From: Thiocapsa rosea
GTDB lineage: Bacteria > Pseudomonadota > Gammaproteobacteria > Chromatiales > Chromatiaceae
Assembly (NCBI RefSeq): GCF_003634315.1
Contig: NZ_RBXL01000001.1
Location: 1,782,501 to 1,846,500 of the forward strand
Reading direction: 5' to 3'
DNA: 64,000 nt
In this document: positions 1-62,168 of the stretch, piece by piece
Numbering within the stretch: the first letter of the stretch is position 1
Layout: every line of letters begins with the position of its first letter
Position numbers and translations under genes: made by a program
Notes under the pieces: model-generated
Database searches by the model: none
Told to the model about the DNA's origin: nothing
The model's input: the letters and a program-made list of their open reading frames with translations, nothing else

Positions 1-105
1 GTATTAAAAAATATATCATTTTAAACCGCGTCTCCGCTAAGGGCCGTGAATGCACCACACGTCGAACTCACTCGAAAGTGAGCATCTCGCTCTGGACGCG
101 GTTTA
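1..105 (-). repeat. 84-bp inverted-end repeat, copy R1 (type A), with AT-rich linker
   Basis: The element spans 22-105 and runs from TAAACCGCG to CGCGGTTTA, with an internal stem CTCAC/GTGAG around 68-82. Its better conserved end lies at 105 and points into the sugar transferase gene. Bases 103-105 (TTA) are the TAA stop codon of that gene. Bases 1-21 are the same AT-rich linker that separates paired copies at 3876-3897, so a partner copy probably lies just outside the window. Confidence 0.85.
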
Positions 106-846
106 GTAGGCACCCCGTCCGAACAACACGGCAGGCACCGTCTGCCAGAGGAGCTTGAGGTCGGTCCACAGGGACTGTGATTCGATATAGCGAACATCCA
201 GCTCGACCTGCTGGGGGAAGGGGATATCGGATCGTCCCGAGACCTGCCAGATACAGGTGATGCCGGGCGTGACCTCCAAGCGCCGCCGGTCGGAGAGCGA
301 GTATTCGTCGACCTCCGCCGGGACCGGCGGGCGCGGACCGACCAGCGACATATCCCCTTTGATCACGTTCCACAACTGCGGCAGCTCGTCGATCGATGCC
401 TTGCGGATGAACCGGCCGATGCGGGTGATGCGCGGGTCGCGTTGCATCTTGAAGGTGACCCCGCCGGACATCTCGTTCTCGTCCTGCAGCTCGGCCTTGC
501 GCGCCTCGGCGTCCATATACATGGAGCGGAACTTGTACATGGTGAAGATCTGGCCCCAGCGCCCGACGCGTGTCTGCTTAAACAACGCCGGACCGGGTGA
601 TTCGAGCCGGATCGCCAGCACCAGCAGACCGAAGATCGGCAACAGCAGGATGAACAAGGGGCCGGCCAGCAGGATATCCAGGGCGCGCTTGAGCAGATAG
701 GCCGAGCGCACGACCGCCACCCAGGCAAACCGCTTGGCACCGATGCGCAATCGGATCAACCACGCGGGCTGGCCGGCGCGGCTGTAGCGGCGCAGCAGCA
801 GCTCTTCCATCGAGGTCTGGCTCGGTCGTTCGTCGCTGCTCGTCAT
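103..846 (-). CDS. Undecaprenyl-phosphate sugar-1-phosphate transferase (WcaJ/PglC type)
   Basis: This 247-residue protein should start EPS repeat-unit assembly by moving a sugar-1-phosphate from a UDP-sugar to undecaprenyl phosphate at the inner membrane. It has one N-terminal hydrophobic segment (about residues 45-70) and the full catalytic domain of the bacterial sugar transferase family: KFRSM, the catalytic pair in SIDELPQLWN, GDMSLVGPRP and RPGIT-like TPGITCIWQVSGR. The short form without extra N-terminal membrane helices resembles monotopic PglC-like enzymes. The ATG at 846 overlaps the stop of the upstream WecG-fusion gene by four bases (ATGA). Its TAA stop is the terminal trinucleotide of repeat R1. 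The sugar specificity cannot be read from the sequence. Confidence 0.93.
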   Translation of the reverse strand: MTSSDERPSQTSMEELLLRRYSRAGQPAWLIRLRIGAKRFAWVAVVRSAYLLKRALDILLAGPLFILLLPIFGLLVLAIRLESPGPALFKQTRVGRWGQIFTMYKFRSMYMDAEARKAELQDENEMSGGVTFKMQRDPRITRIGRFIRKASIDELPQLWNVIKGDMSLVGPRPPVPAEVDEYSLSDRRRLEVTPGITCIWQVSGRSDIPFPQQVELDVRYIESQSLWTDLKLLWQTVPAVLFGRGAY

Positions 847-2171
847 GAGGTCTCCCCGCCGCGCGCCTGTCGCCAGACGCGGTAAAGGAACAAGGGGTTG
901 CCGATCACATAGCGCCGCCACATGCGACCCGGCTCCTGCATCAGCCGCCAGGTCCATTCGAGCCCGATCTCGCGCATCCACACCGGCGCCCGTGGGATGC
1001 GGCCCGAGTAGAAGTCGAAGAGACCGCCGACGCCCATGCGCACCGGCAGTGTCAGGCGCGCATGGTTTCGCGCGAGCCATTTCTCCTGACGCGGCACACC
1101 GAAGGCGACCAGCAGGATCGCGGCGCCCGAGGCGTTGATCCGGTCGATGACGGCGTCCTCGTCGGCCGGGTCGAAATAGCCGTCTTGAACCCCGTCGATG
1201 CGCAGACCCGGAAACTGCGCCTGCATGTTGGCCGCCACCGCCTCGGCGATCCCCGGGCGCGCGCCGAGCAGGAACAGCCCGAGGCCCGTCTGCGCTGCCC
1301 GCTCGCACAGCTGCGGGAAGAGGTCGGTACCGTTGACATTGGCCTGCAGGGCGACCCCGAGCATACGACAGCCAATGTGGATACCGATACCGTCGGGCAG
1401 CACGCGCGCGGCATCGAGCAGGATCCGGCGATACTCGGCATCGACATAGGCGATGTTGAGGCAATCCGGGTTGACGAAGGCCAGCAACGCGGGGTCCCCG
1501 CCGACGGCGCGAGCCGCGATCCAGTCCACCGCCTCGGGCATGGTGGTGTTGACGATCGGGACACCGAAGAACTCGAGGATGGGCGGTGTGGGCGCTTCGC
1601 CTCCGCCGAGAACCTCCCCGATCAGGGAGCGCACCACCAAGCCGGCGTCGCCGCGCGCGCTCTGCCCGTAGGCATAATCGCTGTCGATCTGTGCCTCGGG
1701 CGCATAGGCCACACCGGTGCGGCTCTTGAGTCGGTAGGGCGAGAAGACACCGGGTCTGACCGTGAAGCGTACGGCCGCCTCGACACCGACGACCGCCGCC
1801 TCGCGCGCAGTCAAGGGACGTGGTCCGGCGACGGCCAAGTCCCCGCGCAGGATATTCAGCAGCACCGCAAGACCGCGACCCGGCGTCGAGCCGGCGAAGT
1901 AAAGGCGCTCGAAGGGTGCACGGAAACGCCCGACCAAAGGCTCGCGGTCGAAGATCCGACCCTCGCGCCCGCGTGCCACCACGCCGCGCAACAGCAGCAG
2001 CGGAGCAAGCATCGCCATGAGCAGCAGCGCGAGCATCAGGTCGAGTGCACGCGAGAGCACAACCCCGAGGACGGTGAGCGGCGGCAAGAGACTCCGCAGC
2101 CAGAGTGCGCGCCACGGCCGCTGCCGGCGGCCGAGCGGACCGGGGATCTGCAAGTCGGGCTTGCGCTTCAT
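843..2171 (-). CDS. WecG/TagA/CpsF glycosyltransferase fused to a degenerate sugar-transferase domain
   Basis: The protein has 442 residues. The C-terminal half (about 200-435) is a WecG/TagA/CpsF glycosyltransferase, shown by FVNPDCLNIAY, LPDGIGI, NGTDLFP, FLLGARPG and AFGVPRQEKW. This family adds the second sugar to the lipid-linked primer. The N-terminal half (about 25-190) aligns with the sugar-1-phosphate transferase family (ILRGDLAVAGPRPLT, RPGVFSPYRL). Where active enzymes have DELPQLWN this one reads RGLAVLLN, so the catalytic Asp-Glu is gone and the domain is probably structural or regulatory. Translationally coupled by four-base overlaps to both neighbours, including the intact initiating transferase downstream. 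The glycosyltransferase call is firm; the role of the N-terminal domain is inferred. Confidence 0.88.
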   Translation of the reverse strand: MKRKPDLQIPGPLGRRQRPWRALWLRSLLPPLTVLGVVLSRALDLMLALLLMAMLAPLLLLRGVVARGREGRIFDREPLVGRFRAPFERLYFAGSTPGRGLAVLLNILRGDLAVAGPRPLTAREAAVVGVEAAVRFTVRPGVFSPYRLKSRTGVAYAPEAQIDSDYAYGQSARGDAGLVVRSLIGEVLGGGEAPTPPILEFFGVPIVNTTMPEAVDWIAARAVGGDPALLAFVNPDCLNIAYVDAEYRRILLDAARVLPDGIGIHIGCRMLGVALQANVNGTDLFPQLCERAAQTGLGLFLLGARPGIAEAVAANMQAQFPGLRIDGVQDGYFDPADEDAVIDRINASGAAILLVAFGVPRQEKWLARNHARLTLPVRMGVGGLFDFYSGRIPRAPVWMREIGLEWTWRLMQEPGRMWRRYVIGNPLFLYRVWRQARGGETS

Positions 2172-2752
2172 GACGTCGTCGCCCCGGCTTCGGATCGGGA
2201 GTCTTTCCCGGACGAGATCGCTGCACCGGACGAAGCGCGGATCGATGTCGCATCGCCTCGGGAAATGATGCGGGCCGGGACCCCGACCGCGAGACAGCCG
2301 TCGGGGACGTCCTGAATCACCACCGCATTGGCCCCGATCGCGACGTCTTTGCCGATGCGGATCGGGCCGAGCACCTTGGCGCCGGCCCCGATGTCGACCC
2401 GATCGCCGATCACGGGCGCCCCGCGCACCCCGCGATGACGCAGTCCCACCGTCACCCCGTTGCGCACCACGCAGTCGTCGCCGAAGACGGCGTCTCCGCT
2501 GATGATGATGCCGCCGAAGTGCTCGATCAGGAAGCGCCGGCCGAGCTGCACCTCGCAGGGCAGGTCGATGCCGGTCATGATTTGGGAGAGCACCTTGAGG
2601 AGCTTGTAGAGGAACGAGAACGGCCAGCGCAAAGCGCGGTTCTCGATCCGGTAGCGCCAGCGCCCGAAGCGATAGACGAGCATGACCCAGAACCCTTGGC
2701 GTGCCCAGTCGCGTTCGTAGGTCTGCCAGTCTTCACGAATGTTCTCGAACAT
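2168..2752 (-). CDS. Serine acetyltransferase-like hexapeptide acyltransferase
   Basis: A 194-residue left-handed beta-helix acyltransferase of the CysE/colanic-acid type. The N-terminal helical part (FENIREDWQTYERDW) is followed by hexapeptide turns from about residue 65 to 160, with IEHFGGIIISG, GVTVGLRHRG, GDRVDIGAGAKVLG and IGANAVVIQDVP. The last 25 residues are a low-complexity tail without the fold. Because it lies inside an EPS operon and overlaps the next gene by four bases, a role in acetylating a polysaccharide sugar is more likely than cysteine synthesis. The acceptor is unknown. Confidence 0.85.
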   Translation of the reverse strand: MFENIREDWQTYERDWARQGFWVMLVYRFGRWRYRIENRALRWPFSFLYKLLKVLSQIMTGIDLPCEVQLGRRFLIEHFGGIIISGDAVFGDDCVVRNGVTVGLRHRGVRGAPVIGDRVDIGAGAKVLGPIRIGKDVAIGANAVVIQDVPDGCLAVGVPARIISRGDATSIRASSGAAISSGKDSRSEAGATTS

Positions 2753-2773
2753 GGCGTGCTCCCGACTCGGTAA

Positions 2774-3788: not shown

Positions 3789-3875
3789 TACAACCGCGCC
3801 CAGTGCGGTATGCGTCGTTTGTCGGACTGGCTTGGCCGCGCCGGCTCCGATCATTGTCGGAGGCGGCGCGGTTTA
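3789..3875 (+). repeat. Inverted-end repeat copy R2 (type B)
   Basis: An 87-bp element with a slightly decayed left end (ACAACCGCGCCCAG), the type B segment GTGCGGTATGC, an internal GC-rich hairpin (GGCTCCGA/TCGGAGGC) and the right end GGCGCGGTTTA. It forms the first half of a 195-bp inverted pair with R3, across the AT-rich linker 3876-3897. Confidence 0.85.
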
Positions 3876-3897
3876 AAGTATTAAAAAATATAAAATT

Positions 3898-3983
3898 CAA
3901 AACCGCGTCCCCCGCTAAGGGCCGTGGATGCACCAAACGTCGAACTCACGCGAAAGTGAGCATCTCGCCCTGGACGCGGTTTA
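3898..3983 (-). repeat. Inverted-end repeat copy R3 (type A)
   Basis: A near-identical relative of R1, including the core TAAGGGCCGTGGATGCACC and the CTCAC/GTGAG stem. It is in opposite orientation to R2. Its last bases (TTA, 3981-3983) are the TAA stop codon of the membrane glycosyltransferase gene. Confidence 0.9.
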
Positions 3984-5180
3984 GTCCTTCCGCTCGGTAT
4001 CGTTGCGCTCGGTGCGCACCCAGGCGGCATCGGTTCGGGAGGCCCGTCCGATGGCGCGCAGGATGGTGAGCTTCCACAGGATGTAGAACGGTGCCGTCGC
4101 CAGGGCGAGCAGATCGCGCCAACCGCCGCCCCCGATACGAATCGCTGCCAAGACATGCACTGCGACCAGGGTCAGACCCAAAAGCGCATAGGTCCTGGTG
4201 GGTCCGAAGGGCGGCAGGAATGCCACCAGCAGCAACAACACATGAAAGGCCAACGGCAGCAACAATAGCTCGAGCAACGGCTCGATCAGACGACGCTCGC
4301 CGGACATGACGCGGCGCAGCAGGATCGGGGTCCAGTCGAGAATCATCCTGAAGCGACCGCCTTCCCAGCGCGCGCGTTGACCGGCACCGGCCTCGCGAGT
4401 GTAGGGCGCGTCCGACCAAACCCCGGTGTTCGGCGCAAACACCACGCGCCGACCGGCGGCGACCAGGCGCAGATGGTATTCCATGTCCTCCACGACGCTG
4501 GTTGCCTCGTAAGGTTCTTTCAGAAGGGTTTCGCGGGTCAGCCCGAAGCCGTTGCCGAGCAGGCCAACAGAGAGTTTCCAGCGCTCGCGTCCGCGTAACC
4601 GCAGCACGTTGAACGCCATCCAGGCAATGCCCCTTAGCCGCGCCCGGAGGCTATGCTGTGGGTTGTTGATGCGATAGCCGCACTGGATCGCTGCGGCGCC
4701 GCGGCGCATCAGTCGACGCTGTTCGGTCACCAGGTTCGGCGCGACCCGGGTGTCGGCATCGACCACGATGAAGCCATCGAAGGGTTCCTCGAGGAGGATG
4801 CCGAAGGCAAAGTCGAGCGCATAGCCCTTGCCGCGGCGCTGCGGGTCATGACGCTCCAAGACGCGCGCCCCGGCGGAGCGCGCCAGCTCGGCGGTGTCGT
4901 CGGTGCAGTTGTCGGCGATGACCACGACATCGAAACCCGCATCGCCCGGATCGCAGGCGCGCAGCGAGGCGACGGTGCTTGCAATGCCCTCCGCTTCGTC
5001 ATGGGCCGGGACCAGGATGGCGATGGATCCGATGGGCGTCGCCATCTTCGGCTGCGTTTCGCGCCGCGGCGGGAGGATTCCGCCGAGCGTCAGGAGCAGC
5101 AGCTCGATCGTGCCGGGCAGGCTCGGCAGGGCGAGCAGGATGCCGAGCAGCATCCAGGGCCAAAGGGTCTCGTTGATCAC
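3981..5180 (-). CDS. Membrane-bound family 2 glycosyltransferase (BcsA/PgaC-like)
   Basis: A 399-residue inner-membrane glycosyltransferase. One N-terminal helix (about 8-35) precedes a GT2 catalytic domain with AILVPAHDE, VVVIADNCTDDTAE, the metal-binding VVDADTRV, the base in VVEDMEYH and a processive-type QRARW motif. At least three C-terminal membrane helices follow (about 295-370). This layout matches cellulose and poly-GlcNAc synthase relatives that also move single sugars. The start is GTG, overlapping the stop of the glycoside hydrolase gene as GTGA. The stop codon lies in repeat R3. Confidence 0.9.
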   Translation of the reverse strand: MINETLWPWMLLGILLALPSLPGTIELLLLTLGGILPPRRETQPKMATPIGSIAILVPAHDEAEGIASTVASLRACDPGDAGFDVVVIADNCTDDTAELARSAGARVLERHDPQRRGKGYALDFAFGILLEEPFDGFIVVDADTRVAPNLVTEQRRLMRRGAAAIQCGYRINNPQHSLRARLRGIAWMAFNVLRLRGRERWKLSVGLLGNGFGLTRETLLKEPYEATSVVEDMEYHLRLVAAGRRVVFAPNTGVWSDAPYTREAGAGQRARWEGGRFRMILDWTPILLRRVMSGERRLIEPLLELLLLPLAFHVLLLLVAFLPPFGPTRTYALLGLTLVAVHVLAAIRIGGGGWRDLLALATAPFYILWKLTILRAIGRASRTDAAWVRTERNDTERKD

Positions 5181-29256: not shown

Positions 29257-29340
29257 TAAACCGCGCCTAGCGCGGTATGGGATGTTTTTGGATGGGATCG
29301 ACCTCGGCAGACTTGACGTCCGCTGGAGTCGGCGCGGTTA
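29257..29340 (+). repeat. Inverted-end repeat copy R4 (type B)
   Basis: An 84-bp type B copy, nearly identical to R13 (GCGCGGTATGGGATGTTTTT; GGCAGAC; CCGCTGGAG), with ends TAAACCGCGCC and GGCGCGGTTA. It pairs with R5 across the AT-rich linker 29341-29364. Confidence 0.88.
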
Positions 29341-29364
29341 AGAATCTTATATTTTTTCATACTT

Positions 29365-29450
29365 TAAACCGCGCCAACTCCGACAGTCGTCGGAGCTGGC
29401 GCGGCCAAGCCATTCCAGCACATGACGCATACCGCACCGGGCGCGGTTTA
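29365..29450 (-). repeat. Inverted-end repeat copy R5 (type B, hairpin variant)
   Basis: An 86-bp copy in reverse orientation, most like R2 (core GGCCAAGCC and stem CTCCGACAG/TCGTCGGAG). Together with R4 it forms a 194-bp unit with both conserved ends outward. Confidence 0.88.
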
Positions 29451-29497
29451 AGGTCCGTGGATGCATCAAACAGTGCATGTCTTGCCGGACGCGGTTT
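29451..29497 (-). repeat. Truncated inverted-end repeat R6 (type A right part)
   Basis: Only the outer half of a type A element remains (GGTCCGTGGATGCATCAAAC and CCGGACGCGGTTT), attached directly to R5. It ends two bases before the comM stop codon at 29500-29502. Confidence 0.75.
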
Positions 29498-29499
29498 GA

Positions 29500-43561: not shown

Positions 43562-43645
43562 TAAACCGCGTCCAGAGCGAGATGCTCACTTTCGCGTGAG
43601 CTCGACGTTTGGTGCATCTACGGCCCTTAGCGGCGACGCGGTTTA
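43562..43645 (+). repeat. Inverted-end repeat copy R7 (type A)
   Basis: An 84-bp copy that is the reverse complement of R1 and R3, with the same CTCAC/GTGAG stem and core. It stands alone, just beyond the terminator at 43467-43510 and 168 bp before the TPR gene. Nothing else is seen in 43646-43812. Confidence 0.92.
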
Positions 43646-45200: not shown

Positions 45201-45285
45201 TAAACCGCGTCAGCTCCAAGTCATTCGGGTTGCACCGTGCGTTGTCTCTCAATCTCCTGTCCCACCCGGACCACGGACGCGGTTT
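45201..45285 (-). repeat. Inverted-end repeat copy R8 (divergent core)
   Basis: An 85-bp element with ends TAAACCGCGTC and GGACGCGGTTT but a core unlike types A-C. It lies between the methyltransferase and hupK start regions. The rest of 45064-45354 shows no further feature apart from a GGAGG near 45338. Confidence 0.75.
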
Positions 45286-45354
45286 GAGCTATCCTGCAGC
45301 CCGATCGGCTACACTGCAAGCATTGCATCGCCAATCCGGAGGTCCGCAAGCCGC

Positions 45355-46530
45355 ATGTCCGATCCGGGTGGAAGTCTCGACATCCAATTGACGCCGTCTT
45401 CGGGTGGTCTCGTCTGCACGATCGGCTCGACACGCCCGGTCGCTGCCGCGTCGGCCTTCATCGGGCGCTCGCCCGAAGAGACGACGGCGCGCCTGCCGCT
45501 GCTCTTCTCGATCTGCGCACGCGCTCAAGCCGGCGCCTGTGCGGCGGCATTCGAGCACGCCTCCGGGTGGGTTGCGAGCCCGATCCTCCGCGGACGGCGC
45601 GAGGCGGCGATCGCCGCGGAGACGATCCGCGAGCACCTGTGGCGAATCCTGCTTGATTGGCCCCCGATCTTGGGCGAGTCGCCCAGTCGTGACGACATGG
45701 CTGCGGTCCTTGCACTATCGAACCGCATCCTGGCGCGGATCGACCCCGCCGGCGATCTGTTCCGCGCCGGAGCGAGTGCGGCGGCGGGTCAAGCCCCCGC
45801 TCCCGCCCCCGCCCCCGGCCTCGATGTCCTGCTCACCGATCTGACCGACCTGCTGACGCACAAGGTCCTCGGGGTCTCGCCCGAGCATTGGTTGAGCCTG
45901 ATCGGCGACCCGTCGGGCTTCGCGCGCTGGTGTCGCGCGACGGAGACGGTCGCGGCTCGCCTGTTGCGCTCACTGCTGGAATCGGGCGAGGCATCGCTCG
46001 GACAGACCCCGATTACTGCGTTGCCGCGACTCTCCGCCGAGGATCTGATCGCACGGATGAGCGCACCGGATTGGGCCGATTTCGTCGCCCGTCCGACCTG
46101 GCAGGGCCAACCGCGCGAGACCAGCCCCTTCACGCGTGTGAACCCGCTGCCGCTGATCGAGGTTTACGGGACGGGCCTCTTGGTCCGTCTTGCCGCTCAA
46201 CTCACGGAGGTCGCAACCGGCTTGCGCCTCCTCGGCGGCAACGTCTCGGGGCGTGCCGTCCCGGCAGCTCCGAGCGCGGAAGGCAACGGGATCGGACTCG
46301 GGCGCGTCTTCGCGGCACGCGGGCTTCTGGCTCATTTCGTCCACGTCGAGGACGGCCGGGTCCGCGAGTATCGAATCCTTGCGCCGACCGAGTGGAATTT
46401 TCACCCGCGCGGCGTCGTTGCCCGAGCGCTGGAGAGTCTGCCGCCCGGCCCCGAGGAGCAGTTGCGTCGACAAGCCGAACTCTTGATCACGGCGATCGAT
46501 CCCTGTGTCGCCTTCAAGCTCACCTGTTAA
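45355..46530 (+). CDS. hupK: Hydrogenase maturation protein HupK
   Basis: A 391-residue paralogue of the [NiFe] hydrogenase large subunit. The C-terminal end aligns with the nickel ligand region but reads DPCVAFKLTC instead of DPCxxCxxH, and the N-terminal CxxC pair is absent, so it cannot hold the active site. HupK proteins are thought to act as scaffold with HypC and HypD when the Fe(CN)2CO group is built. It precedes hypCDE, the order known from Thiocapsa roseopersicina. A Pro/Ala-rich stretch at about 143-152 is a linker. The TAA stop is the first trinucleotide of repeat R9. Confidence 0.85.
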   Translation: MSDPGGSLDIQLTPSSGGLVCTIGSTRPVAAASAFIGRSPEETTARLPLLFSICARAQAGACAAAFEHASGWVASPILRGRREAAIAAETIREHLWRILLDWPPILGESPSRDDMAAVLALSNRILARIDPAGDLFRAGASAAAGQAPAPAPAPGLDVLLTDLTDLLTHKVLGVSPEHWLSLIGDPSGFARWCRATETVAARLLRSLLESGEASLGQTPITALPRLSAEDLIARMSAPDWADFVARPTWQGQPRETSPFTRVNPLPLIEVYGTGLLVRLAAQLTEVATGLRLLGGNVSGRAVPAAPSAEGNGIGLGRVFAARGLLAHFVHVEDGRVREYRILAPTEWNFHPRGVVARALESLPPGPEEQLRRQAELLITAIDPCVAFKLTC

Positions 46531-46612
46531 AACGCGCCCCGAGCGACATGTGATGTCGTCGTTCGGCGCAGGGTGGCTGCGAGTCTGATACCCTCGTGGA
46601 TGGCGCGTTTTA
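46528..46612 (+). repeat. Inverted-end repeat copy R9
   Basis: An 85-bp copy with altered matching ends, TAAAACGCGCC and GGCGCGTTTTA: the C-to-A change at one end is mirrored at the other. The core keeps CGAGCGACATG near the conserved end. Its first three bases are the hupK stop codon. Confidence 0.85.
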
Positions 46613-46632: not shown

Positions 46633-46715
46633 TAAAGCGCGTCCAGGCAGACATCGTTGTTTTCATTTTGCCTTTGGCCTCGGAGATGTCCTCCATTCCG
46701 TTGAGACGCGGTTTA
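46633..46715 (+). repeat. Inverted-end repeat copy R10 (type C)
   Basis: An 83-bp element sharing its core with R16 (TCGTTGTTTTCA..TTTGGC, GGAGA..TCCTC). Left end TAAAGCGCGTCCAG is decayed. It is separated from R9 by the AT-rich linker 46613-46632. Confidence 0.82.
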
Positions 46716-46720
46716 GAATT

Positions 46721-46804
46721 TAAAACGCGTCTCGCCAAGGTTCCGGTTGGCGAGGAGGTTCGTCCCGATCTATACGCTTCATTGATCACCCTGGACGCGT
46801 TTTA
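46721..46804 (-). repeat. Inverted-end repeat copy R11
   Basis: An 84-bp element with the A-variant ends TAAAACGCGTC and GGACGCGTTTTA and an internal stem CTCGCCAA/TTGGCGAG. It ends 20 bp before the hypC start, so the hypC promoter or leader must lie inside this array. Confidence 0.85.
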
Positions 46805-50223: not shown

Positions 50224-50309
50224 TAAACCGCGTCAACGAAAAGGGTAATTGTCGCGCGAGCGGCCCCGTTTCCCGCCGACGCAGTCTGTTGCTCAAGCGA
50301 CGCGGTTTA
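50224..50309. repeat. Inverted-end repeat copy R12 (unique core)
   Basis: An 86-bp copy with perfect ends TAAACCGCGTC and GACGCGGTTTA; orientation cannot be assigned because neither end shows the extended motif. Its last bases (50307-50309) are the TAA stop codon of the DUF6544-like gene. Confidence 0.82.
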
Positions 50310-51191: not shown

Positions 51192-51277
51192 TAAACCGCG
51201 CTCAGCGCGGTATGGGATGTTTTTTGGATGAGATCGGCCCCGGCAGACGTGACGACCGCTGGAGCCGGCGCGGTTTA
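51192..51277 (+). repeat. Inverted-end repeat copy R13 (type B)
   Basis: An 86-bp copy almost identical to R4 (GCGCGGTATGGGATGTTTTT, GGCAGACGTGACG, GGCGCGGTTTA). Forms a 193-bp inverted pair with R14 across the AT-rich linker 51278-51300. Confidence 0.9.
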
Positions 51278-51300
51278 AGATTTTAAGAAAAAGATCATTT

Positions 51301-51384
51301 TAAACCGCGTCCCCCTAAGGGCCGTGGAGGCACCAAACGTCGAGCCCACTCGAAAATCTAGCATCTCGCTCTGGACGCGGTTTA
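51301..51384 (-). repeat. Inverted-end repeat copy R14 (type A)
   Basis: An 84-bp copy of the R1/R3 type (CTAAGGGCCGTGGAGGCACC), with the internal stem weakened (CCCACTCGAAAATCTAG). It ends 130 bp before the ABC ATPase start; that interval contains a GC-rich CCCGCTCGAGGCGGGGG hairpin at 51393-51410. Confidence 0.9.
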
Positions 51385-51513
51385 AGGTGGGCCCCGCTCG
51401 AGGCGGGGGTCGGGGCGAGTCCCCGACATTATTCAAGGTGATCGTCGATCCGTCCACCGTCCGATAGGGGGCGGTTTGGCAATGCCGCACGCACAGGGTA
51501 TCGTTCCCTCGTC

Positions 51514-52449: not shown

Positions 52450-53183
52450 TCGGGGTGATCGCGGGTCGCGAGCTGCGCAGTGCGCTGGTCTCGCCTTTGC
52501 CCTGGATCCTGCTCGGCGGCAGTCAGGTCGTGCTCGCCTGGATCTTTCTGAAGGTGGTCGACGACTTCACGGGTCTGGGGGCCGACGAGCGGGTCGCGAG
52601 TCTGACGGTGGAGCTGGCCCTGAACCTGTTCGGATTCGCTGCGGTGATCCTCATGCTCGCGGCGCCGCTGATGGCGATGCGGATGCTGAGCGGGGAGTTT
52701 CGCGACGGCAGCTTCGAGCTGGTGGCCGCCGCGCCGGTGCGTATCGCCGAGCTGGTGGCGGGGAAGTTTCTCGCGTTGACGCTCCTGATGACGCCGCTGT
52801 GTGTGCTGCCGGTCCTCAACATCGCGCTGCTGGCCGGCAGCGCCCAGCTCGACGCGGGGCAGATCGCCGCCGCAACACTCGGGCTCTGGCTGGTCGGCCT
52901 GATGTTTTGCGCGGTGGGGCTCTATGCCTCCAGCCTGAGCGCTCAGACGGGTGCATCCGTGATTGCCGCCTTCGCGATCCTGCTGGTCCTCTCCGTCATC
53001 GGTCGGGTCGAGACGTTGGGCGCGCGTGATCTCTCGCTCTTCGGCTGGCTTTCTTGGAACGAGCATCTCTTGTGGTTTCTGCTCGGGGCGGTGCGTTTGA
53101 GCGATCTGGCGTATCTGCTCGGGTTTTCCGGTCTCTTTCTGGCCCTGACCCACCGTCGGCTCGCGAACCGGGTTCTGCAGTGA
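52446..53183 (+). CDS. ABC transporter permease (GldF-like)
   Basis: A 245-residue membrane protein with six helices and the ABC-2 type pattern (LMLAAPLMAMRMLSGEFRDGSFELVAAAPVRIAELV). It is the GldF-like partner of the ATPase encoded before it. The start overlaps the ATPase stop (ATGA) and its stop overlaps the next start (GTGA). Confidence 0.9.
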   Translation: MIGVIAGRELRSALVSPLPWILLGGSQVVLAWIFLKVVDDFTGLGADERVASLTVELALNLFGFAAVILMLAAPLMAMRMLSGEFRDGSFELVAAAPVRIAELVAGKFLALTLLMTPLCVLPVLNIALLAGSAQLDAGQIAAATLGLWLVGLMFCAVGLYASSLSAQTGASVIAAFAILLVLSVIGRVETLGARDLSLFGWLSWNEHLLWFLLGAVRLSDLAYLLGFSGLFLALTHRRLANRVLQ

Positions 53184-54553: not shown

Positions 54554-55722
54554 GGTCGCGCTGGATCCTGAATCTGGTCTTGATCCTCGTCCTCTCGGCA
54601 CTCGTCTGGGCCATTCGTCACGAGCTTGCCGTCACGCGAGCCCCGCCGACATTGGGCGGCTCCGGCGCACCCGAGCCCCACCTGATCGAGATCGCCCGCG
54701 AGGGCGAGCCGACCATCGCGCTCGAGCGTCTCGCCTCCGGCTGGCGGATGCGCTCTCCTTGGGACGTCGATGCGGACCCGGGACGCGTCGCCGCTCTGCT
54801 GGCGATCCGCGATGCGCCGCTCCTGCGCAGCGTGCCGGCGCAGGCCGCCGCGCTCGACACGCTGGGTCTGGACCCGGTCAAGCTGCGTCTGCGCCTGGAT
54901 ACGACCGACATCGCGATGGGCGGTCTGGACCCGATCGCGCAATGGCGTTATGTCGCGAGCGACAACCTGGTCCACCTCATCCCGGACCGTTTCCAGCATC
55001 TGTTGATCGCGCCGCCGATCGACTATGTGGCTTGCATGCCGCTCCCGCGCGATCCCGTGCCTGTCTTCGCGACGCGCGACACCGTCCCGTTGAGTAGCGA
55101 CACCTTGGCCCGGCTCTCGGGCCTGATCGCCGAACGCATCGAGCCCTTGGTCGGCGAGCCCGCCGGCGCGCCGCTCGAGCTGGTCGCAATGGACGGGACG
55201 CGGATGCTCTTCCGGGTCTCCGAGGACGGTCGACGTTGGACACGCCCGGATCTGAGGCTCACCTACGTGCTCGGCGAGGCCCCCGAGCTGATCGAGGACC
55301 CGAGTGCGATCGACCCGACGCCGCCGGTCTCGCTTGCGGTGCCTTTTGCCGACCCCGATGGCGACACGGACGCCGCGCCGATCCACACCGTTTGGCCGGA
55401 GTCCCCCTTGAGTCCGGGGTCGGATGTCTTTGCCCCGGAACCCGAGTGGCGGGAATCGCCGGGCACGTTGGATGCGCTGATGGATCCGGACGCCCCCCTC
55501 TCCGGTGAACTTCCGCTCGGCTCTCCACCCGAGGTCCGGCTGCGTCCGCATGATGTGATTCGCGAGGAGGTGCTGACGCGGGACGATTTCGAGCGGGAGG
55601 GATTCGGGGTCGAGGAGGGGCGAGAACTCCCGGAGGGATTCGGTCTGGATCCCTTCGCCCCGGATCCTGCGGATGCCGATCTCGCAGTCCCGGAGCCCGA
55701 TCCGCCGAGGGGACAACCCTGA
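54550..55722 (+). CDS. DUF4340-like protein of the Gld-type ABC system
   Basis: A 390-residue protein with a signal-anchor (about 5-25) and a beta-rich domain (about 40-255) like DUF4340 proteins, which regularly follow GldG-like genes. The last 130 residues are rich in Pro, Asp and Glu and look disordered, longer than usual for the family. The start overlaps the GldG-like stop and the stop overlaps the mutM start (TGATG). Confidence 0.78.
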   Translation: MRSRWILNLVLILVLSALVWAIRHELAVTRAPPTLGGSGAPEPHLIEIAREGEPTIALERLASGWRMRSPWDVDADPGRVAALLAIRDAPLLRSVPAQAAALDTLGLDPVKLRLRLDTTDIAMGGLDPIAQWRYVASDNLVHLIPDRFQHLLIAPPIDYVACMPLPRDPVPVFATRDTVPLSSDTLARLSGLIAERIEPLVGEPAGAPLELVAMDGTRMLFRVSEDGRRWTRPDLRLTYVLGEAPELIEDPSAIDPTPPVSLAVPFADPDGDTDAAPIHTVWPESPLSPGSDVFAPEPEWRESPGTLDALMDPDAPLSGELPLGSPPEVRLRPHDVIREEVLTRDDFEREGFGVEEGRELPEGFGLDPFAPDPADADLAVPEPDPPRGQP

Positions 55723-56549
55723 TGCCCGAGCTTCCGGAGGTCGAGACCACGCTCCGCGGCATCCGCCCCTATCTGGAGGGCAGTCGCATCGAGCGTCTGA
55801 TCGTGCGCGACCCGAGACTGCGCCAGCCAATCCCGCCCGAGACCGCCGAGCGGGTGGCGGGTCAGGGCGTGCGGTCCTTGTCCAGGCGCAGCAAATATCT
55901 CTTGATCGGATTGGAGCAGGGTAGTCTCCTCATCCATCTGGGGATGTCCGGCAGCCTGCGGGTCGTCCCCGCGGACAGCCCGCCGAAGAAACACGACCAC
56001 CTCGATCTGGTGCTGGGCGATCGGCGTTGTCTTCGGTTTCACGACCCTCGCCGCTTCGGTCTTTTTCTGTGGCTCCCGGAGACCCCCGAGCTTGCCGAGA
56101 GCCGTCATCCGCTGCTGCGCGGCCTCGGCCCCGAGCCGCTGGGGACGGCGTTCGACGGCGATCATCTCCATCGCCTGAGCCGAGAACGGCGGGTCGCCGT
56201 GAAGATCTTCCTGATGGATGCCTCGGTGGTGGTGGGGGTCGGGAACATCTATGCGAACGAGTCGCTTTTTCTGGCCGGGATCCATCCCGCTCGCGCCTGC
56301 CATCGAATCGGTCTGGAGCGCTACCGCCGTTTGGCCGAGGTGATCCGCGGCGTGCTCCAAGCCTCCATCACACAAGGCGGTACCACGCTGCGCGACTTCG
56401 TGCAGGAGGACGGCAACCCCGGCTATTTCGCCCAATCGCTGCGGGTTTACGGCCGCACCGGCGAGCCCTGCGTCGCCTGCGGTGTGCCTGTTCGCCAGCG
56501 GCGCATCGGGCAACGCTCAAGTTTTTTTTGCATCCATTGCCAACACTGA
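55722..56549 (+). CDS. mutM: Formamidopyrimidine-DNA glycosylase
   Basis: A 275-residue base-excision repair enzyme that removes 8-oxoguanine. The N-terminal MPELPEVETT supplies catalytic Pro2 and Glu3, Lys is in the SRRSKYLL region, IYANESLF is the helix-two-turn-helix and the zinc finger is CVACGVPVRQRRIGQRSSFFCIHC. Translation is coupled to the DUF4340-like gene, an unexplained but tight link to the ABC system. Confidence 0.97.
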   Translation: MPELPEVETTLRGIRPYLEGSRIERLIVRDPRLRQPIPPETAERVAGQGVRSLSRRSKYLLIGLEQGSLLIHLGMSGSLRVVPADSPPKKHDHLDLVLGDRRCLRFHDPRRFGLFLWLPETPELAESRHPLLRGLGPEPLGTAFDGDHLHRLSRERRVAVKIFLMDASVVVGVGNIYANESLFLAGIHPARACHRIGLERYRRLAEVIRGVLQASITQGGTTLRDFVQEDGNPGYFAQSLRVYGRTGEPCVACGVPVRQRRIGQRSSFFCIHCQH

Positions 56550-56638
56550 TCCGATCGAGGTGACCTCGCGACGGTACGCCGTCGAATCTGCCCGCCCGGC
56601 GCGTGCCCCGGGTCGTACGCAGACCGCCCGGAGAGAAG

Positions 56639-58183
56639 ATGATCCTATTCGAACGACTGGCTCAACTGCATTGGCCCATTTTACTGGGAGTGGCTTTCGT
56701 GCTCATGCTCTGGCGCCTCGGGTCGGGGCCGCTTCAGGGCCGCTGGCTGCGCAAGCGCGTTCCGATCATGCTCGCCGTCGGCGATCTGCTCTTGTGGCCT
56801 CTCCTGGTGTTGGTGGCGGGGAGCCTGCTCCTGTTGCTCACGCCGTGGCTGGAAGTCGAGAATGCCAACACCGGGGTGCGCACCGCGACCCTGGTCGTGT
56901 GCTATTTGGTCGCCAGTTGGCTGCTCGCGCGCCTGATCGAGGTGATGATCCTGCGCAAGGCCGACGATACCCTACCCGAGCGCGTGCCGAAGCTGGTCGT
57001 CGGCTTGATCTATGTCGCGCTCATGCTCGTGGGTATTGCGATCGTGCTCTGGCAGCGCGGTTATTCCTTCGCCGGGATTTGGCTCTCCACGGGTGTCGCC
57101 GCGGCGGTGCTCGGTCTTGCGCTCCAGCGCACGCTCGGGGATCTCTTCTCCGGGATCGCACTCGGCATCGAGCGGCCGTTCAAGATGGGGGATTGGGTGG
57201 AGCTGCGCGACGGCACCGTCGGTCAGGTCATCGACCTCAACTGGCGTGCCACCCGCCTACGTGGCTGGGACAATGCCACGCATGTCATCCCGAATTCCAA
57301 GATGGCGGGCGAGCCGCTGAAAAATCTGCACGACGACCAGCATCTCTTCGCCCCATGGTATTTCGTCCGGATCCCGGCCGAGGTCGATCCGCGCTTCGCC
57401 ACGGCACTTATTCTCGACGCGGCCTTGCGGTGTGAAAGCGTTCTGAAGTTCCCCTATCCGATCGTTCGCCTCGCGGATGCGACGACCATCCCTTACCAGT
57501 ACATGGTGTGGGTCCATTTGAAGAACTATCCCGCGGTGTTTCGCGGTCGCGAGGAGCTGTTCCGCGAGATTCATTGGGCCATGCAACGCGCGGGGATCAG
57601 CATCGCGCCGGAGGTCCACGAGCTTCACACACGTCGAGCCGCCGTGGTCCAGGCCGAGCCGCCGACGATCCTGCTCGCGCTCAAGGGTCTGGATGTGGCC
57701 GGTTTGCTCACGCAGGAGGAGCTCGAGCAGGTGGCCGCGCGCAGCGTCTATTCTCACTTCGACAGCGGGCATGTCATCCTCGCCGAAGGCGCCCCGAGCG
57801 ATGCCTTTTACGTGATCGTCGGCGGACTCGTGGAGGCCGCCATTACGCTGCCGGATCGCACTCGCAAGGTCACGGAGGTCATCGGTCCCGGCCATCACCT
57901 GGGGATTACATCCATGTTGACCGACGAACCCTCCTTCCTGGAGCTGCGGGCCAAGAGCGATGTGAACCTGATCCGGATCGACCTGGATTGCCTGCGGTCG
58001 TTGTTGGCCAAACGCCCCGAGCTGGCCGAGCGTTTCGCCCGCATCGTGAAGGAGCGGGTCGATGCCGCGGATGCGGCCAGGGCTGCGAGCCGCCAGCCGG
58101 TCGGGCGCCTGAGTCTACGCGACATCCGCCAGCGCATCGAAGGACTCATGGCCCGCCAATCACGCTTTACGCGGCGACCCTAA
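56639..58183 (+). CDS. MscS-type channel with C-terminal cyclic-nucleotide-binding-like domain
   Basis: A 514-residue protein. Four hydrophobic helices (about 10-165) lead to the MscS pore and beta domain (GVAAAVLGLALQRTLGDL, RPFKMGDWVELRDGTVGQV, VIPNSKMAGEPLKN). A cNMP-binding fold follows (about 365-470, FDSGHVILAEGAPSDAFYVIVGG). In its phosphate-binding loop the usual Gly-Glu and Arg are replaced (HLGITSMLTDEPSFLEL), so cyclic nucleotide binding is doubtful. ATG at 56639 has GGAGAG before it. The stop codon is the first trinucleotide of repeat R15. It may relieve osmotic pressure, which suits the nearby betaine genes. Confidence 0.9.
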   Translation: MILFERLAQLHWPILLGVAFVLMLWRLGSGPLQGRWLRKRVPIMLAVGDLLLWPLLVLVAGSLLLLLTPWLEVENANTGVRTATLVVCYLVASWLLARLIEVMILRKADDTLPERVPKLVVGLIYVALMLVGIAIVLWQRGYSFAGIWLSTGVAAAVLGLALQRTLGDLFSGIALGIERPFKMGDWVELRDGTVGQVIDLNWRATRLRGWDNATHVIPNSKMAGEPLKNLHDDQHLFAPWYFVRIPAEVDPRFATALILDAALRCESVLKFPYPIVRLADATTIPYQYMVWVHLKNYPAVFRGREELFREIHWAMQRAGISIAPEVHELHTRRAAVVQAEPPTILLALKGLDVAGLLTQEELEQVAARSVYSHFDSGHVILAEGAPSDAFYVIVGGLVEAAITLPDRTRKVTEVIGPGHHLGITSMLTDEPSFLELRAKSDVNLIRIDLDCLRSLLAKRPELAERFARIVKERVDAADAARAASRQPVGRLSLRDIRQRIEGLMARQSRFTRRP

Positions 58184-58206
58184 ACCGCGCCCGGCGCGGT
58201 ATGCGA
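58181..58206 (+). repeat. Truncated inverted-end repeat R15 (type B left end)
   Basis: Only the conserved outer end remains: TAAACCGCGCCCGG then CGCGGTATGCG. Its first three bases are the MscS-gene stop. The rest is replaced by the 3' end of the BCCT gene, whose stop lies at 58216. Confidence 0.75.
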
Positions 58207-58215
58207 CTCGGACCG

Positions 58216-60213
58216 TCACCGCATCGTCTGCAGGAAATGCATATGCCGCTCGTACTGGTCGAGAACGTCGCCGATGATGTCCTGCGCGCTCCAACCCATG
58301 AGGTCGTAGTCTTGGCCGCCTTCGCGCAGGTGGACCTCCGCGCGGAAATACTCGAGTGCCTTCGCCCGGCTGGCGCGGGTGTCGCGCATCACGAAGCTGG
58401 GTGCCTCGTAGGGGCGCGGTCGGACCGAATAGAAGAAATCGATCTCGGCGCCATGACGGACCTCGACCCAGACGCGACCGTCCTCGCCTTCCACGAGCCC
58501 GGCATCCAGGCGCATCTTGCCCAATTCCTCCACGACCTCGCCCAAGGCCGGTTTGACGGTGTCGCGGATGAAACGCAACACCTCGTCGTGGGTCGGCTGG
58601 TGCACGAGTGCGCGCAGTCGGCGGCGCCAGTTCACCGGGCTCTGCGGGCCGCCGGGTGTCACCCGCGCCTCGCGCAGGCTCAGATGCTTGATCGCGTCGA
58701 TGCGCAGCGCCCGCAGCAAGCCCCAGCACATGAGAATCATCACGACCGTAAAGGGCAGTGCGCTGGCGATGGTGGCGGTCTGCAGTGCGGCCAGCCCACC
58801 TGCGACCAACAAGGCTGCGGCGACCACGCCTTCGACGACCGCCCAGAAGATGCGCTGCCAGAGCGGTGATTCCTCTTTGCCGCCCGAGGTCAGGATGTCC
58901 ACCACCAGGGATCCGGAGTCCGACGAGGTCACGAAGAAGGTGACGACCAGGAGGGTCGCGAGCAGCGCGGATACGCTCGAAAACGGCAGATGCTCGAAGA
59001 ACTGGAAGAGCGCCACCGAGGTATCGGCCGACACCGCAGCGGCGAGCGAGCCGATCCCTTGGATCATGATCATGTGGATGGCTGTGCCGCCGAAGAAGGT
59101 CATCCACATGAAGGTAAAGCCCAGCGGCACCAGCAGGACGCCGGTGACGAACTCACGGATGGTGCGTCCGCGCGAGACGCGCGCGATGAACATGCCGACG
59201 AAGGGCGCCCAGGCGATCCACCAGCCCCAATAGAAGAGCGTCCAGCCGCCGATCCAGTCGGTCGGCTCGTAGGCGTAAAGATTGAACGTCATCTCGAACA
59301 GACTGGACAGATACATCCCGGTGTTCTGAACAAGTGACTGAAGCAGAAAGACGGTCGGTCCGGCGATCAGGACGAATGCCATCAAGGCCACGGCCAGGAT
59401 CATGTTCAATTCCGAGATGCGCCGGATCCCCGAGTCGAGTCCGAGACCCACGGAGAGGGTCGCAATGGCCGTGATGCCGGCGATCAACATCACCTGGACG
59501 CCGATCGATGTCGGCACATCGAAGAGATAGTTGAGCCCCGAGTTGATCTGAATCACCCCGAATCCGAGCGAGGTCGCCACGCCGAAGATGGTCCCCAAGA
59601 CGGCGAAGATATCGACCGTATGGCCGATCGGGCCGTAGATACGATCGCCGATGAGCGGGTAGAGCGAGGAGCGGATGGTCAGGGGCAGGCCGTGCCTGAA
59701 CGCGAAGTAGGCCAACGAGAGCGCCACGACGGCGTAGATGGCCCAGGCATGTACGCCCCAATGGAAGAAGGTGATGCGCATGGCTTGGCGGGCGGCCTCG
59801 GCGACCTCCGGGTCGCCGACCGGCGGGGCGACGAAGTGCATCACCGGCTCGGCCACCCCGAAGAACATCAGACCGATCCCCATGCCGGCGGAGAACAGCA
59901 TCGCGAACCAGGACACATAGCTGTAGTCCGGCTCGGAGTGATCGGGTCCGAGCTTGATTCGCCCGAGGCTCGAGACGGCGAGCGCGATCACGAAGACGAC
60001 AAAACCGGCCACGGCCATCACGTAAAACCAACCGGCCGATCCGATCACCCAGCCCTGAATGGATTTGAACAGGGGCTCGGCGGTCTCCGTGGCGAGGGTG
60101 GCGAAGAGCACCAAGGCCAGCGTCAGCACCGCCGAGATGATGAAGACCGGGGGATTCCACTGAATCCAGGGTTTGGTCTCCGCGGCCGGGTCCGATTCGT
60201 TCGTGTCGTTCAT
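58216..60213 (-). CDS. BCCT-family betaine/choline transporter
   Basis: A 665-residue inner-membrane transporter with 12 helices and the family signature WTLFYWGWWIAWAPFVGMF followed by ARVSRGRTIREF. A cytoplasmic C-terminal domain of about 150 residues (from about 510) is of the BetT type that responds to osmotic stress. It takes up glycine betaine or choline with a cation gradient. It lies on the same strand 100 bp after the betaine-synthesis genes, separated by repeat R16, which leaves only 19 bp before its start codon. Confidence 0.93.
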   Translation of the reverse strand: MNDTNESDPAAETKPWIQWNPPVFIISAVLTLALVLFATLATETAEPLFKSIQGWVIGSAGWFYVMAVAGFVVFVIALAVSSLGRIKLGPDHSEPDYSYVSWFAMLFSAGMGIGLMFFGVAEPVMHFVAPPVGDPEVAEAARQAMRITFFHWGVHAWAIYAVVALSLAYFAFRHGLPLTIRSSLYPLIGDRIYGPIGHTVDIFAVLGTIFGVATSLGFGVIQINSGLNYLFDVPTSIGVQVMLIAGITAIATLSVGLGLDSGIRRISELNMILAVALMAFVLIAGPTVFLLQSLVQNTGMYLSSLFEMTFNLYAYEPTDWIGGWTLFYWGWWIAWAPFVGMFIARVSRGRTIREFVTGVLLVPLGFTFMWMTFFGGTAIHMIMIQGIGSLAAAVSADTSVALFQFFEHLPFSSVSALLATLLVVTFFVTSSDSGSLVVDILTSGGKEESPLWQRIFWAVVEGVVAAALLVAGGLAALQTATIASALPFTVVMILMCWGLLRALRIDAIKHLSLREARVTPGGPQSPVNWRRRLRALVHQPTHDEVLRFIRDTVKPALGEVVEELGKMRLDAGLVEGEDGRVWVEVRHGAEIDFFYSVRPRPYEAPSFVMRDTRASRAKALEYFRAEVHLREGGQDYDLMGWSAQDIIGDVLDQYERHMHFLQTMR

Positions 60214-60232
60214 GGTCGTGATCCTTCCGTAT

Positions 60233-60313
60233 TAAACCGCGCCCAGAGCGAAATGCGTCGTTTTCACGTTGCGTTTGGCTTTGGAGAAATCCTCGATCTC
60301 GGTAAGGCGCGGT

Positions 60314-60316
<3 letters not shown>
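60233..60316 (+). repeat. Inverted-end repeat copy R16 (type C)
   Basis: An 84-bp copy with perfect ends TAAACCGCGCC and GGCGCGGTTTA and the type C core shared with R10. It fills the gap between two genes of the betaine cluster; bases 60314-60316 are the stop codon of the dimethylglycine methyltransferase gene. Confidence 0.9.
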
Positions 60317-61152
<836 letters not shown>

Positions 61153-61156
<4 letters not shown>

Positions 61157-61971
61157 GCGTCGTCGCCTCCCTCCACGTAGCTTTTCTCGGCAACGTGGAT
61201 AAAGAAGTCCGGCTCGTCGTCGCGATAGGTTTCTTTGAAGTCGCCATAGGTCGTGACGCGCTGAAATCCCACCTCGTGGAGCAGTCGGCGCGTGTAATTT
61301 TTGCGCAAGGGAAACATGTTGAGATGGAAGACATGGTCGCCGGGGAACTCGTAGCGAAAACGCGCAAGCGTGTCGTCGACATGCTCGGGCTGAGCACGGA
61401 CATTTTCGCCGCAGTAATAGTAGTTGTGCGTCGGGGGAATCTGATGATCCAGAATCGCGTCGTAGTTGCGCTGATCGAGGATCAGAATGCCGTCGTGTCG
61501 CAAGGTGGCATAGAATTCGGCCAATGCCTTGCGGCGGTCGTTCTCGTCGTGCAGATGGGTGAATGAGTTGCCCAGACAGATGACGGCGTCGTAGTAATCG
61601 TGGACATCGCGATTGAGCCATCGCCAGTCCGCTTGCACGGTGCGCAGGATCTTCTCGCGGCGTCGTGCATTTTCGAAGGCCTTCGCCAGCATGACCGGAT
61701 TGCCGTCGGCACTGGTCACCTCGAACCCGGCCCGCAGCAGTTGCACCGAATGGAATCCGGTTCCGGTGGCAACGTCAAGGACCTTGCGCGCGCCGTGCTC
61801 TTCGAGGAGCCGAATGAAGAAGTCGCCTTCGCTCTGGGCACGTCCGTCCCAGTCGATCAGCTCGTCCCATTTCTCCACGAACGATTGGATGTATTCGGCT
61901 TGGTAATGATTCGTGTCGCGGACCTTCAGCGGATTGGTCCCGTAGTCTTGCTTGGTGCGTTCGAGCTTCAT
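61153..61971 (-). CDS. gsmt: Glycine/sarcosine N-methyltransferase
   Basis: A 272-residue enzyme that methylates glycine to sarcosine and dimethylglycine using SAM, the first steps of de novo betaine synthesis. It shows YQAEYIQSFVEKWDELIDW, the SAM site VLDVATGTGFHSVQLLRAGF, VTSADGN, CLGNSFTHLHD and ILDQRNYDAIL. Start at 61971, directly behind a perfect GGAGGTG. The route is known from halophilic phototrophs such as Halorhodospira, so the cell probably faces salt stress. Confidence 0.95.
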
Positions 61972-61983
61972 GTCACCTCCTGG

Positions 61984-62077
61984 CTCCCGGAACGGGAGTG
62001 ATGTTGGTGGCTGAAGACGCCGTCGGATCTGAGCAAGCGCCTCACCGCTGCGTGAGCGGAGCCGCCCGAGTCGGGCG
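61984..62077 (-). promoter_or_regulatory. Hairpins in the leader of the betaine-synthesis genes
   Basis: Three dyads lie in the 194-bp gap between porin and gsmt: CTCCCG/CGGGAG (61984-61998, next to the ribosome site), CCGCT/AGCGG (62045-62059) and the perfect CGCCCGAGTCGGGCG (62063-62077). One or more may end the porin message or control betaine gene expression; no T-tract follows any of them. Confidence 0.45.
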
Positions 62078-62157
62078 ATAAACCAGTGAGTGCGTGAGCG
62101 GTGCGACGTGACGAACCGACGTCTTCGACAGGTGTCCGAAACCTGAATCCCGCACCG

Positions 62158-62168
62158 CACGCGATTTA
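62158..62168 (-). repeat. Decayed solo end of the inverted-end repeat (R17)
   Basis: On the minus strand TAAATCGCGTGCGG then TGCGG matches the conserved end with few changes and no second end. The first three bases are the stop codon of the porin gene, as at the intact copies. Confidence 0.45.

Follow-up and report, generated by a model that had tools for sequence, protein, structure and literature searches.

Correia/NEMIS elements, ERIC sequences and other miniature inverted-repeat transposable elements (MITEs) at TA sites are small intergenic repeats with inverted ends and without a gene. Here we describe a repeat family with the same outward features in Thiocapsa, met first in a stretch of 64,000 nucleotides from Thiocapsa rosea (the window; C1:1782501-1846500 of the 6.11-Mb genome G000), where elements of about 85 bp stand singly or in inverted pairs and many adjoin the stop codon of a gene. 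The described systems closest to it are doublets of repetitive extragenic palindromic (REP) sequences, namely REP doublets forming hairpins (REPINs) and bacterial interspersed mosaic elements (BIMEs). As far as the available parts of two reports go (PMC3116915, PMC2817692), the Thiocapsa family shares with them hundreds of extragenic copies, an inverted doublet as the unit, two partner classes (compare the Y and Z BIMEs), compensatory pairing of the ends, a length that matters above the core sequence and a class-2 Y1 protein in the genome. Among the REP-associated tyrosine transposases (RAYTs), TIRYT / TnpA_Y1 subclass 2.1 occurs in 14.9% of the strains surveyed, and in the part of that survey available to us (PMC6006769) automatic and manual searches met no REP-like sequences near the gene. 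We propose that the Thiocapsa repeats are probably non-autonomous, REP/BIME/REPIN-like elements that move as single strands, in trans, through an enzyme of the HuH/RAYT type.

A sequence-only reading of the window had claimed 14 full-length and three partial copies with shared ends, a constant length, recurrent cores and one better conserved end that gives each copy a direction. Pattern matching and direct reading returned the same count, 14 + 3, with full-length copies of 83-86 bp, and the end sequence TAAACCGCG matched 20 times in the window compared to 0.30 expected from shuffles. Genome-wide, the strict pattern TAAACCGCGYCN{50,80}GRCGCGGTTTA found 517 copies in G000 and its reversed control 0; with the looser ends TRAAMCGCGYC, 593 copies were found. 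For a closer view, a collection of elements was assembled from about 1.9 Mb of sequence in G000 and its relatives. The first list, of 277 hits, was selected on end score alone and contains some chance hits, which fall mainly in coding DNA; of its 16 hits within the window, two are chance-like. The cleaned set holds 243 elements of 82-88 bp with at least 8/11 end pairs, 14 of them inside the window; the 34 hits dropped were 29 untyped, 2 alpha, 2 beta and 1 gamma. Lengths of 84, 85 and 86 bp accounted for 83, 97 and 40 of the 277 hits (search range 78-92 bp) and for 79, 97 and 39 of the 243, and in G143, a genome from another genus, 19 of 26 hits in 80 kb were 84-85 bp long (range 60-110 bp). 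Four core types recur in the cleaned set (delta 54, gamma 42, beta 38, alpha 26), next to 83 untyped cores, and a GCGRNATGCG motif marks the better conserved end. All these parts of the earlier description were thus borne out. The untyped cores are diverse: 25 such elements of G000 fall into 24 core clusters, yet have the same ends and length.

Sequence from G006 and G102 (about 290 and 80 kb), taken as a negative control, gave four hits of 78-92 bp, with no pairs and none at stops. Since detection relies on the ends, decayed copies are uncounted, and because some copies shared by collinear stretches of different species go back to one and the same insertion, the counts do not represent independent events. 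At the gathering score no Rfam family matched the window, the pair at 3790-3983 had no match in plasmid and phage collections, and the strict pattern had none in viral contigs. A search of the open-access literature, judged by titles and the starts of abstracts, returned no description of the family in Thiocapsa or Chromatiaceae.

Among related Chromatiaceae the family is present but patchy. The strict pattern occurred in 10 of 56 genomes, G000 included; within the genus Thiocapsa, eight of 11 genomes held 100-509 strict copies and the other three 0. With the looser pattern, 23 of 147 genomes of the order were positive, including G143 (243 copies), three genomes of genus g51 (82, 70 and 32), G028 (52) and G146 (47). 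The family is not only large and old, but also patchily distributed.

The elements are arranged in a characteristic manner. In the cleaned set they form 162 blocks, namely 85 singles, 73 pairs and four triples; the inverted doublet expected of a REPIN or BIME was found, yet more than half of the blocks are singles. The unit is about 193 bp long and consists of an alpha or delta hairpin, an AT-rich spacer of about 23 bp and an inverted beta or gamma hairpin. This class rule was followed by 48 of the 49 fully typed pairs (50/51 before cleaning): 25 were beta-delta, 12 alpha-gamma, nine delta-gamma, two alpha-beta and one alpha-delta, the remaining 24 of the 73 pairs including an untyped member. 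Orientation was '+-', with the GCGRNATGCG ends outward, in 53 of 54 orientable pairs (55/56 before cleaning; 19/73 were not orientable). The spacer measured exactly 23 bp in 39 of the 73 pairs, at a mean AT content of 83%. BLAST showed the pair dispersed as one piece in all eight element-rich Thiocapsa genomes, among the matches listed. In the 80 kb of G143, which was picked because elements were listed there, the uncleaned hits comprise 22 elements and eight pairs, seven of seven oriented pairs being '+-' and seven of eight spacers 21-23 bp long.

To relate the elements to genes, we looked for coding frames ending from -60 to +91 bases of each outer end, scoring the 180 bases before each stop directly with a model trained on these genomes; ends less than 200 bases from a stretch edge (1/324) were excluded. 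A coding stop was found near 121 of 323 outer ends, and in 67 of these 121 (73/132 before cleaning) it lay at offset 0, which means that the stop codon is the first triplet of the element (TAA in 52 cases, TGA in 15). No other offset had more than five stops, and only eight stops lay beyond the first triplet. Outer ends lie at Y|TRA: of the 67 stop ends, 66 follow a pyrimidine, as do 186 of the 202 ends without a called stop, compared to 54% of the stops in 813 genes touching no element (56% for TAA/TGA stops). Overall, 64 of the 162 blocks had at least one end at a called stop. The gene callers are imperfect: genes such as 103-2253 and 60314-61621 were missed, and 16 of 56 uncleaned blocks lie mostly inside called genes. 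Both the stop junction and the pair rules recur in G143, where eight of ten coding stops were at offset 0, all eight preceded by T, and eight of 14 blocks stood at a stop.

The copies within the window, together with the genes they touch, are the following.

22..105, minus strand: beta element forming the right half of an alpha-beta pair, the alpha half being found immediately left of the window edge; its end at 103-105 serves as the TAA stop of a Bac_transf gene
3790..3875, plus strand: alpha element with mutated first bases (ACAACCGCG)
3876..3898: AT-rich pair spacer, 23 bp
3899..3983, minus strand: beta element; 3981-3983 is the TAA stop of gene 3981-5180 (minus strand)
29257..29341, plus strand: delta element; site filled in G001, G002, G004, G005, G008 and G009
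29342..29364: AT-rich spacer, 23 bp
29365..29450, minus strand: alpha element, which displaced part of an older partner in G000
29451..29498, minus strand: remnant of the older partner, one arm only
43562..43645, plus strand: beta element standing alone; G001 and G002 have an empty site here (CGCCTC-AA-GCA)
45201..45286: single element with untyped core, present in G001, G002, G003, G008 and G009
46528..46612, plus strand: old element of the C class, ends TAAAACGCG, whose first TAA terminates open reading frame (ORF) 44980-46530 (plus strand; gene start tentative)
46633..46715, plus strand: gamma element, inserted between the spacer and the second element of the old pair
46721..46804, minus strand: old T-class partner with TAAAACGCG ends
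50224..50309: single element with untyped core; the DUF6920 gene 50307-51164 (minus strand) ends in the TAA at 50307-50309
51192..51277, plus strand: delta element
51278..51300: AT-rich spacer, 23 bp
51301..51384, minus strand: beta element, second half of the 51192/51301 pair
58181..58206, plus strand: partial element with one delta-type end only, which gives the TAA stop to gene 56603-58183 (plus strand; MS_channel and cNMP-binding domains)
60233..60316, plus strand: single gamma element; gene 60314-61621 (minus strand, methyltransferase) has its TAA stop at 60314-60316
62145..62168, minus strand: one degenerate end (TAAATCGCGTGCGGTGCGG...), where ORF 62166-63797 (minus strand) has its stop

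Four inverted pairs with AT-rich spacers of 20-23 bp are thus present in the window, now or before a later insertion (3790/3899, 29257/29365, 46528/46721 and 51192/51301), and six genes with Pfam matches end at elements (22-105, 3983, 46528, 50309, 58181 and 60316). Elements also nest in older elements: the gamma element at 46633-46715 sits at the junction of spacer and second element in G000, with no counterpart at that place in the relatives compared, and in G008 a delta element lies within a second element. ORF 44980-46530, whose stop is supplied by an element, encodes 516 aa with a C-terminal match to the NiFe-hydrogenase large subunit (residues 437-511), and it overlaps element 45201-45286 near its assumed start. 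The window further contains a tRNA-Leu gene (gag; 7810-7900, minus strand).

Comparison of orthologous sites between species revealed precise filled and empty alleles. Clean empty alleles were obtained for 12 blocks at 10 distinct sites, with junctions read by eye, and a stop-type triplet was present at the empty junction, on either strand, in six of the 10. Empty sites with such a triplet, the last two less clean, are listed here.

G004x 172067: TGA in G000 and G001 (GAC-TGA-TGTCC)
G003a 9991: TTA in G002
Window pair 3790-3983: whole pair absent, TAA in G002, G004, G005 and G009
G005 102041, the site of window element 22-105: TAA in G008
G000 64909: TGA in G001
G004x 318151: TAG in G000

The pair at 51192-51384 is filled in G003, G004 and G005, filled in part in G008, and empty in G001 and G002. 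No target duplication was consistent across the empty and filled sites compared. Between G000 and G001, untyped blocks were filled at nine sites and empty at none (15 filled, 0 empty and one other before cleaning), whereas typed blocks were filled at four, empty at four and otherwise at five. The untyped cores are thus old copies inherited vertically, and the four types are of more recent date, their presence still varying from species to species.

The two ends of an element are coupled. Among 249 hits of 83-87 bp, taken without a stem filter, both arms had changed alike at position 2 in 43 elements (12.8 expected), at position 5 in 23 (4.1 expected) and at position 10 in 88 (49.5 expected). 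When one element per untyped core cluster of G000 was used (28 elements), the coupling was still observed (p = 6e-6, 2e-5 and 0.002, respectively). In orthologous comparisons the ends also changed less than the cores. In addition, seven sequences folded as single-stranded DNA at 2.0 to 7.5 standard deviations below shuffles.

That the elements have been mobile in some form is close to certain, and a single-strand pathway is likely. The favoured mobile unit would be the inverted heterodimer, composed of a C-class hairpin of 85-86 bp (alpha or delta), the spacer and a T-class hairpin of 84 bp (beta or gamma), with singles representing half-units or older copies. Each hairpin would close in single-stranded DNA by pairing of its first and last 11 or so bases. 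A HuH-type Y1 enzyme encoded elsewhere, most likely a class-2 (RAYT/TnpA_REP-like) protein whose gene lies beside a release-factor gene, may then cleave at Y|T and join the strand into YTRA sites without target duplication. Insertions at stop codons would survive: as TAA and TGA are stops and the element keeps or re-supplies the triplet, the protein is unchanged. Part of the excess at stops may reflect selection against promoter insertions, which here is inseparable from a target preference. For constant ends around changing cores, the sequence-only reading had offered a selected nucleic-acid form or mobilisation in trans. Both ideas gained support from the covarying ends, the filled and empty sites and the unrelated cores of equal ends and length; what that reading lacked was the heterodimeric unit, the YTRA/stop-codon junction and a co-occurring, unflanked RAYT.

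Nine PF01797 matches were found in G000. The candidate enzyme is a RAYT-like protein of 238 aa whose gene lies beside the release-factor gene in divergent orientation; by eye it has the HuH motif NHFH, a Y...NP motif and WE. It scores 45 bits against PF01797, 64-68 bits against NF047646 (under the cut-off of 80) and E = 0.006 against the TnpA_REP structure PDB 4er8. Each of the 14 genomes found to hold 10 or more elements has an ortholog of 71-100% identity. In 20 genomes of the family, several of them incomplete assemblies, the best match was at most 51% identical or absent at E 1e-20, and no strict elements were found; G089, G101 and G107 have no PF01797 match and are not element-rich. None of the 23 genomes without the ortholog was element-rich and 10 of the 24 with it were element-poor (Fisher p = 8e-6, ignoring kinship and the choice of genomes, some of which were chosen for holding elements). 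A similar gene beside the release-factor gene was also found in G075, G109, G146 and G160, and none was seen in the stretches read of the other compared genomes. Our hypothesis is that this RAYT moves the elements. Elements directly flanking this RAYT gene were not found; only in G123 does an element stand close by, at the stop of the cupin gene following the RAYT, where two other genomes of genus g51 have a bare TGA (G144) or TAA (G153). As the gene is unflanked, like those in the subclass 2.1 survey, its link to the elements is circumstantial. We rejected the arrangement of a classic REPtron, because the release-factor gene intervenes between the RAYT and the variant-end pairs found near it in four genomes. 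A second RAYT, at 3.70 Mb in G000, was rejected as the enzyme too: among 34 genomes only G001 has a full-length ortholog above 70%. Another PF01797 copy (G000:C1:5556915-5560271, L038) is IS200-like and has internal stop codons.

Several observations weigh against this explanation. Ten genomes with a RAYT ortholog of 66-85% identity (G006, G007, G010, G025, G031, G032, G075, G102, G109 and G160) hold only 0-2 elements. A substitute repeat family was sought in one of them, G006, and none was found in 380 kb, which contained only a CRISPR-like array and GC-rich words. In the element-bearing genomes the RAYT is not flanked by elements, the nearest conserved pair lying about 1.3 kb off, past the release-factor gene. 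Moreover, the best full-length relative of the pair at 3792-3984, among the matches listed, is 93% identical, so that no sign of current movement was seen. The class rule is looser in old pairs, as judged from position 10 of the ends, where 44 of the 73 pairs are C/T, 11 T/T, one C/C and 17 mixed.

The junction and the folds add further points of this kind. Neither end lies at a called stop in 98 of the 162 blocks. Noncoding YTRA sites number 1193 in 400 kb of G000, where 159 genes end in Y-TAA or Y-TGA; uniform use of YTRA would place 12% of blocks at stops, and 18 of 44 blocks in G000 are found there (p = 9e-7; 21/56 before cleaning), which leaves something beyond the tetranucleotide unexplained. 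Three of the 10 clean empty sites have no stop-type triplet, namely 51192 (GC-AAC-GG), 43562 (CTC-AA-GCA) and G001x 37978, and one (G005 60154) is ambiguous at the junction; at 3790-3983 the likewise empty G008 is without the TAA. Within orthologs, one-sided changes break 37 end pairs and mend 12, and two-sided changes keep three and break one, so compensation is rare. Internal folds are weakly supported, except for the 3' hairpin of alpha.

Some other repetitive words were seen in these genomes. G006 carries about 15 copies of the CRISPR-array-like word set CGGTTCATCCCCGCAGGCGCGGGGAACAC (L104-L107, L253-L268). Words of ACGACAACGACA occur 47 times in 400 kb of G000 (L009-L028) and about 30 times in 80 kb of G102 (L269-L272), and G000 also has CTGGAGGCTGGAGG words; both appear to be simple-repeat arrays.

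Of the other explanations, the one that fares best is that the elements are kept for a function in mRNA or DNA, as a 3' end structure, an exonuclease barrier or a site for gyrase or a nucleoid protein, their spread being secondary. It is compatible with mobility, and as the main explanation we consider it unlikely. The stop-codon position would be the best place for an element of the 3' untranslated region, and G001 is filled at every site of an untyped G000 copy that allows comparison. In addition, the eight element-rich Thiocapsa genomes all have a pair in the gap that separates the release-factor gene from a tRNA-synthetase gene of class II (D, K, N), two genes that we read, from the G000 copy, as prfB and lysS. 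In 24 ortholog comparisons the terminal 9 + 9 bases differed by 0.077, cores by 0.185 and spacers by 0.218 (ends versus cores p = 6e-13; before cleaning, 0.121 for ends and 0.182 for cores in 51 comparisons). 'Filled' was judged by length here, and as three G006 sites so accepted had non-element ends, G006 was left out of this count. Convergent gaps are also over-used: by rough gene calls they make up 40 of 257 gaps and hold 17 of the 56 uncleaned blocks. However, a role in RNA requires neither the exact offset 0 nor the pyrimidine before the stop, and many genomes of the genus and family do without these repeats. Terminator-like calls in 43400-60400 numbered 16 (8.5 expected), and one of them fell within any of the nine full elements of that stretch. 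Nor is internal structure conserved from type to type, and the idea of a conserved fold of the RNA interior was dropped, its support being weak. At the release-factor/tRNA-synthetase pair of some species, single ends of 15-17 bp are tandemly duplicated beside the full element (L041:4475-4489, L171:4526-4541, L058 just before 1394 and L045:1253-1267).

Less probable still, and in our view improbable, is a MITE with ends AACCGCG...CGCGGTT that is flanked by TA and moved by a TA-duplicating DDE transposase of the IS630/Tc1-mariner type. Inverted ends, small size and high copy number fit such an element, as do most ends, which have the form TA|AACC...GGTT|TA, and the TA in several empty sites. However, the 40 of 243 elements with TG...CA ends (38 of them untyped) leave no TA, and the site G003a 9991 is off a TA duplication by one base. 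Since the clean empty site G004x 172067 is a TGA without TA, we rejected TA duplication. It is very improbable that the elements are attC-like folded recombination sites spread by an integron-type tyrosine recombinase, which would likewise be imperfect palindromes with conserved ends and a free core adjoining stop codons: by eye the TAAACCGCG ends lack RYYYAAC/GTTRRRY in the right place, and the copies are scattered genome-wide without an array and form inverted heterodimers. Random insertion into the 3' ends of genes, truncating them at an element TAA, hardly deserves credence. With TAA at both ends, reading in frame 0 would stop, but frames hit at random should terminate within the element roughly twice as often as on its first triplet, and 67 stops were observed at offset 0 and eight beyond it. 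Several empty alleles also stop at the same codon, and truncation is refuted for most stop-abutting copies.

The proposed movement as single strands by a RAYT-type enzyme leads back to the REP systems, from which the Thiocapsa family differs in several respects. The GTAG, GGAG or CGTC tag on a palindrome of 20-40 bp was not found; in the accessible parts of PMC3116915 and PMC2817692 the units are 20-40 bp with GTAG/GGAG, compared to about 85 bp with YTRA here, where in addition the spacer is AT-rich and about 23 bp long and the Y1 gene is unflanked by repeats. With respect to the GTAG/CGTC-tagged REPs of PMC3733652, as far as that report was available, the tag is a TAA or TGA after a pyrimidine and the size differs. 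Tag, unit size and partner rule thus all set the elements apart from GTAG REPs. Compared to Correia/NEMIS, ERIC and the TA-site MITEs, the family has a TGA site without TA duplication, a heterodimer rule and the stop-codon junction.

The RAYT itself, by motifs and length rather than by a tree, would belong to subclass 2.1. In the portion of PMC6006769 at hand, the listed median length is 238 aa, as in Thiocapsa, the motifs look similar by eye and the genes are likewise unflanked by REPs; the subclass had no REP-like partner there, whereas in Thiocapsa a repeat family co-occurs with it. It is a tentative suggestion that obligate heterodimers of ~85-bp hairpins, inserted at stop codons (YTRA) by single-strand transposition, are the missing substrates of these orphan RAYTs and a kind of REPIN so far undescribed. 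If so, insertion at stop codons would be a built-in harmlessness to the host. A clear unit, a junction motif and a candidate Y1 enzyme make the question of the subclass 2.1 substrate testable in vitro, and the patchy distribution with its collinear filled and empty sites offers a system for measuring the persistence of such populations. The stop-codon junction provides a simple, measurable case of a mobile element sparing its host by its place of insertion, and among relatives of the REP-type mobile palindromes already known it makes this family unusual.

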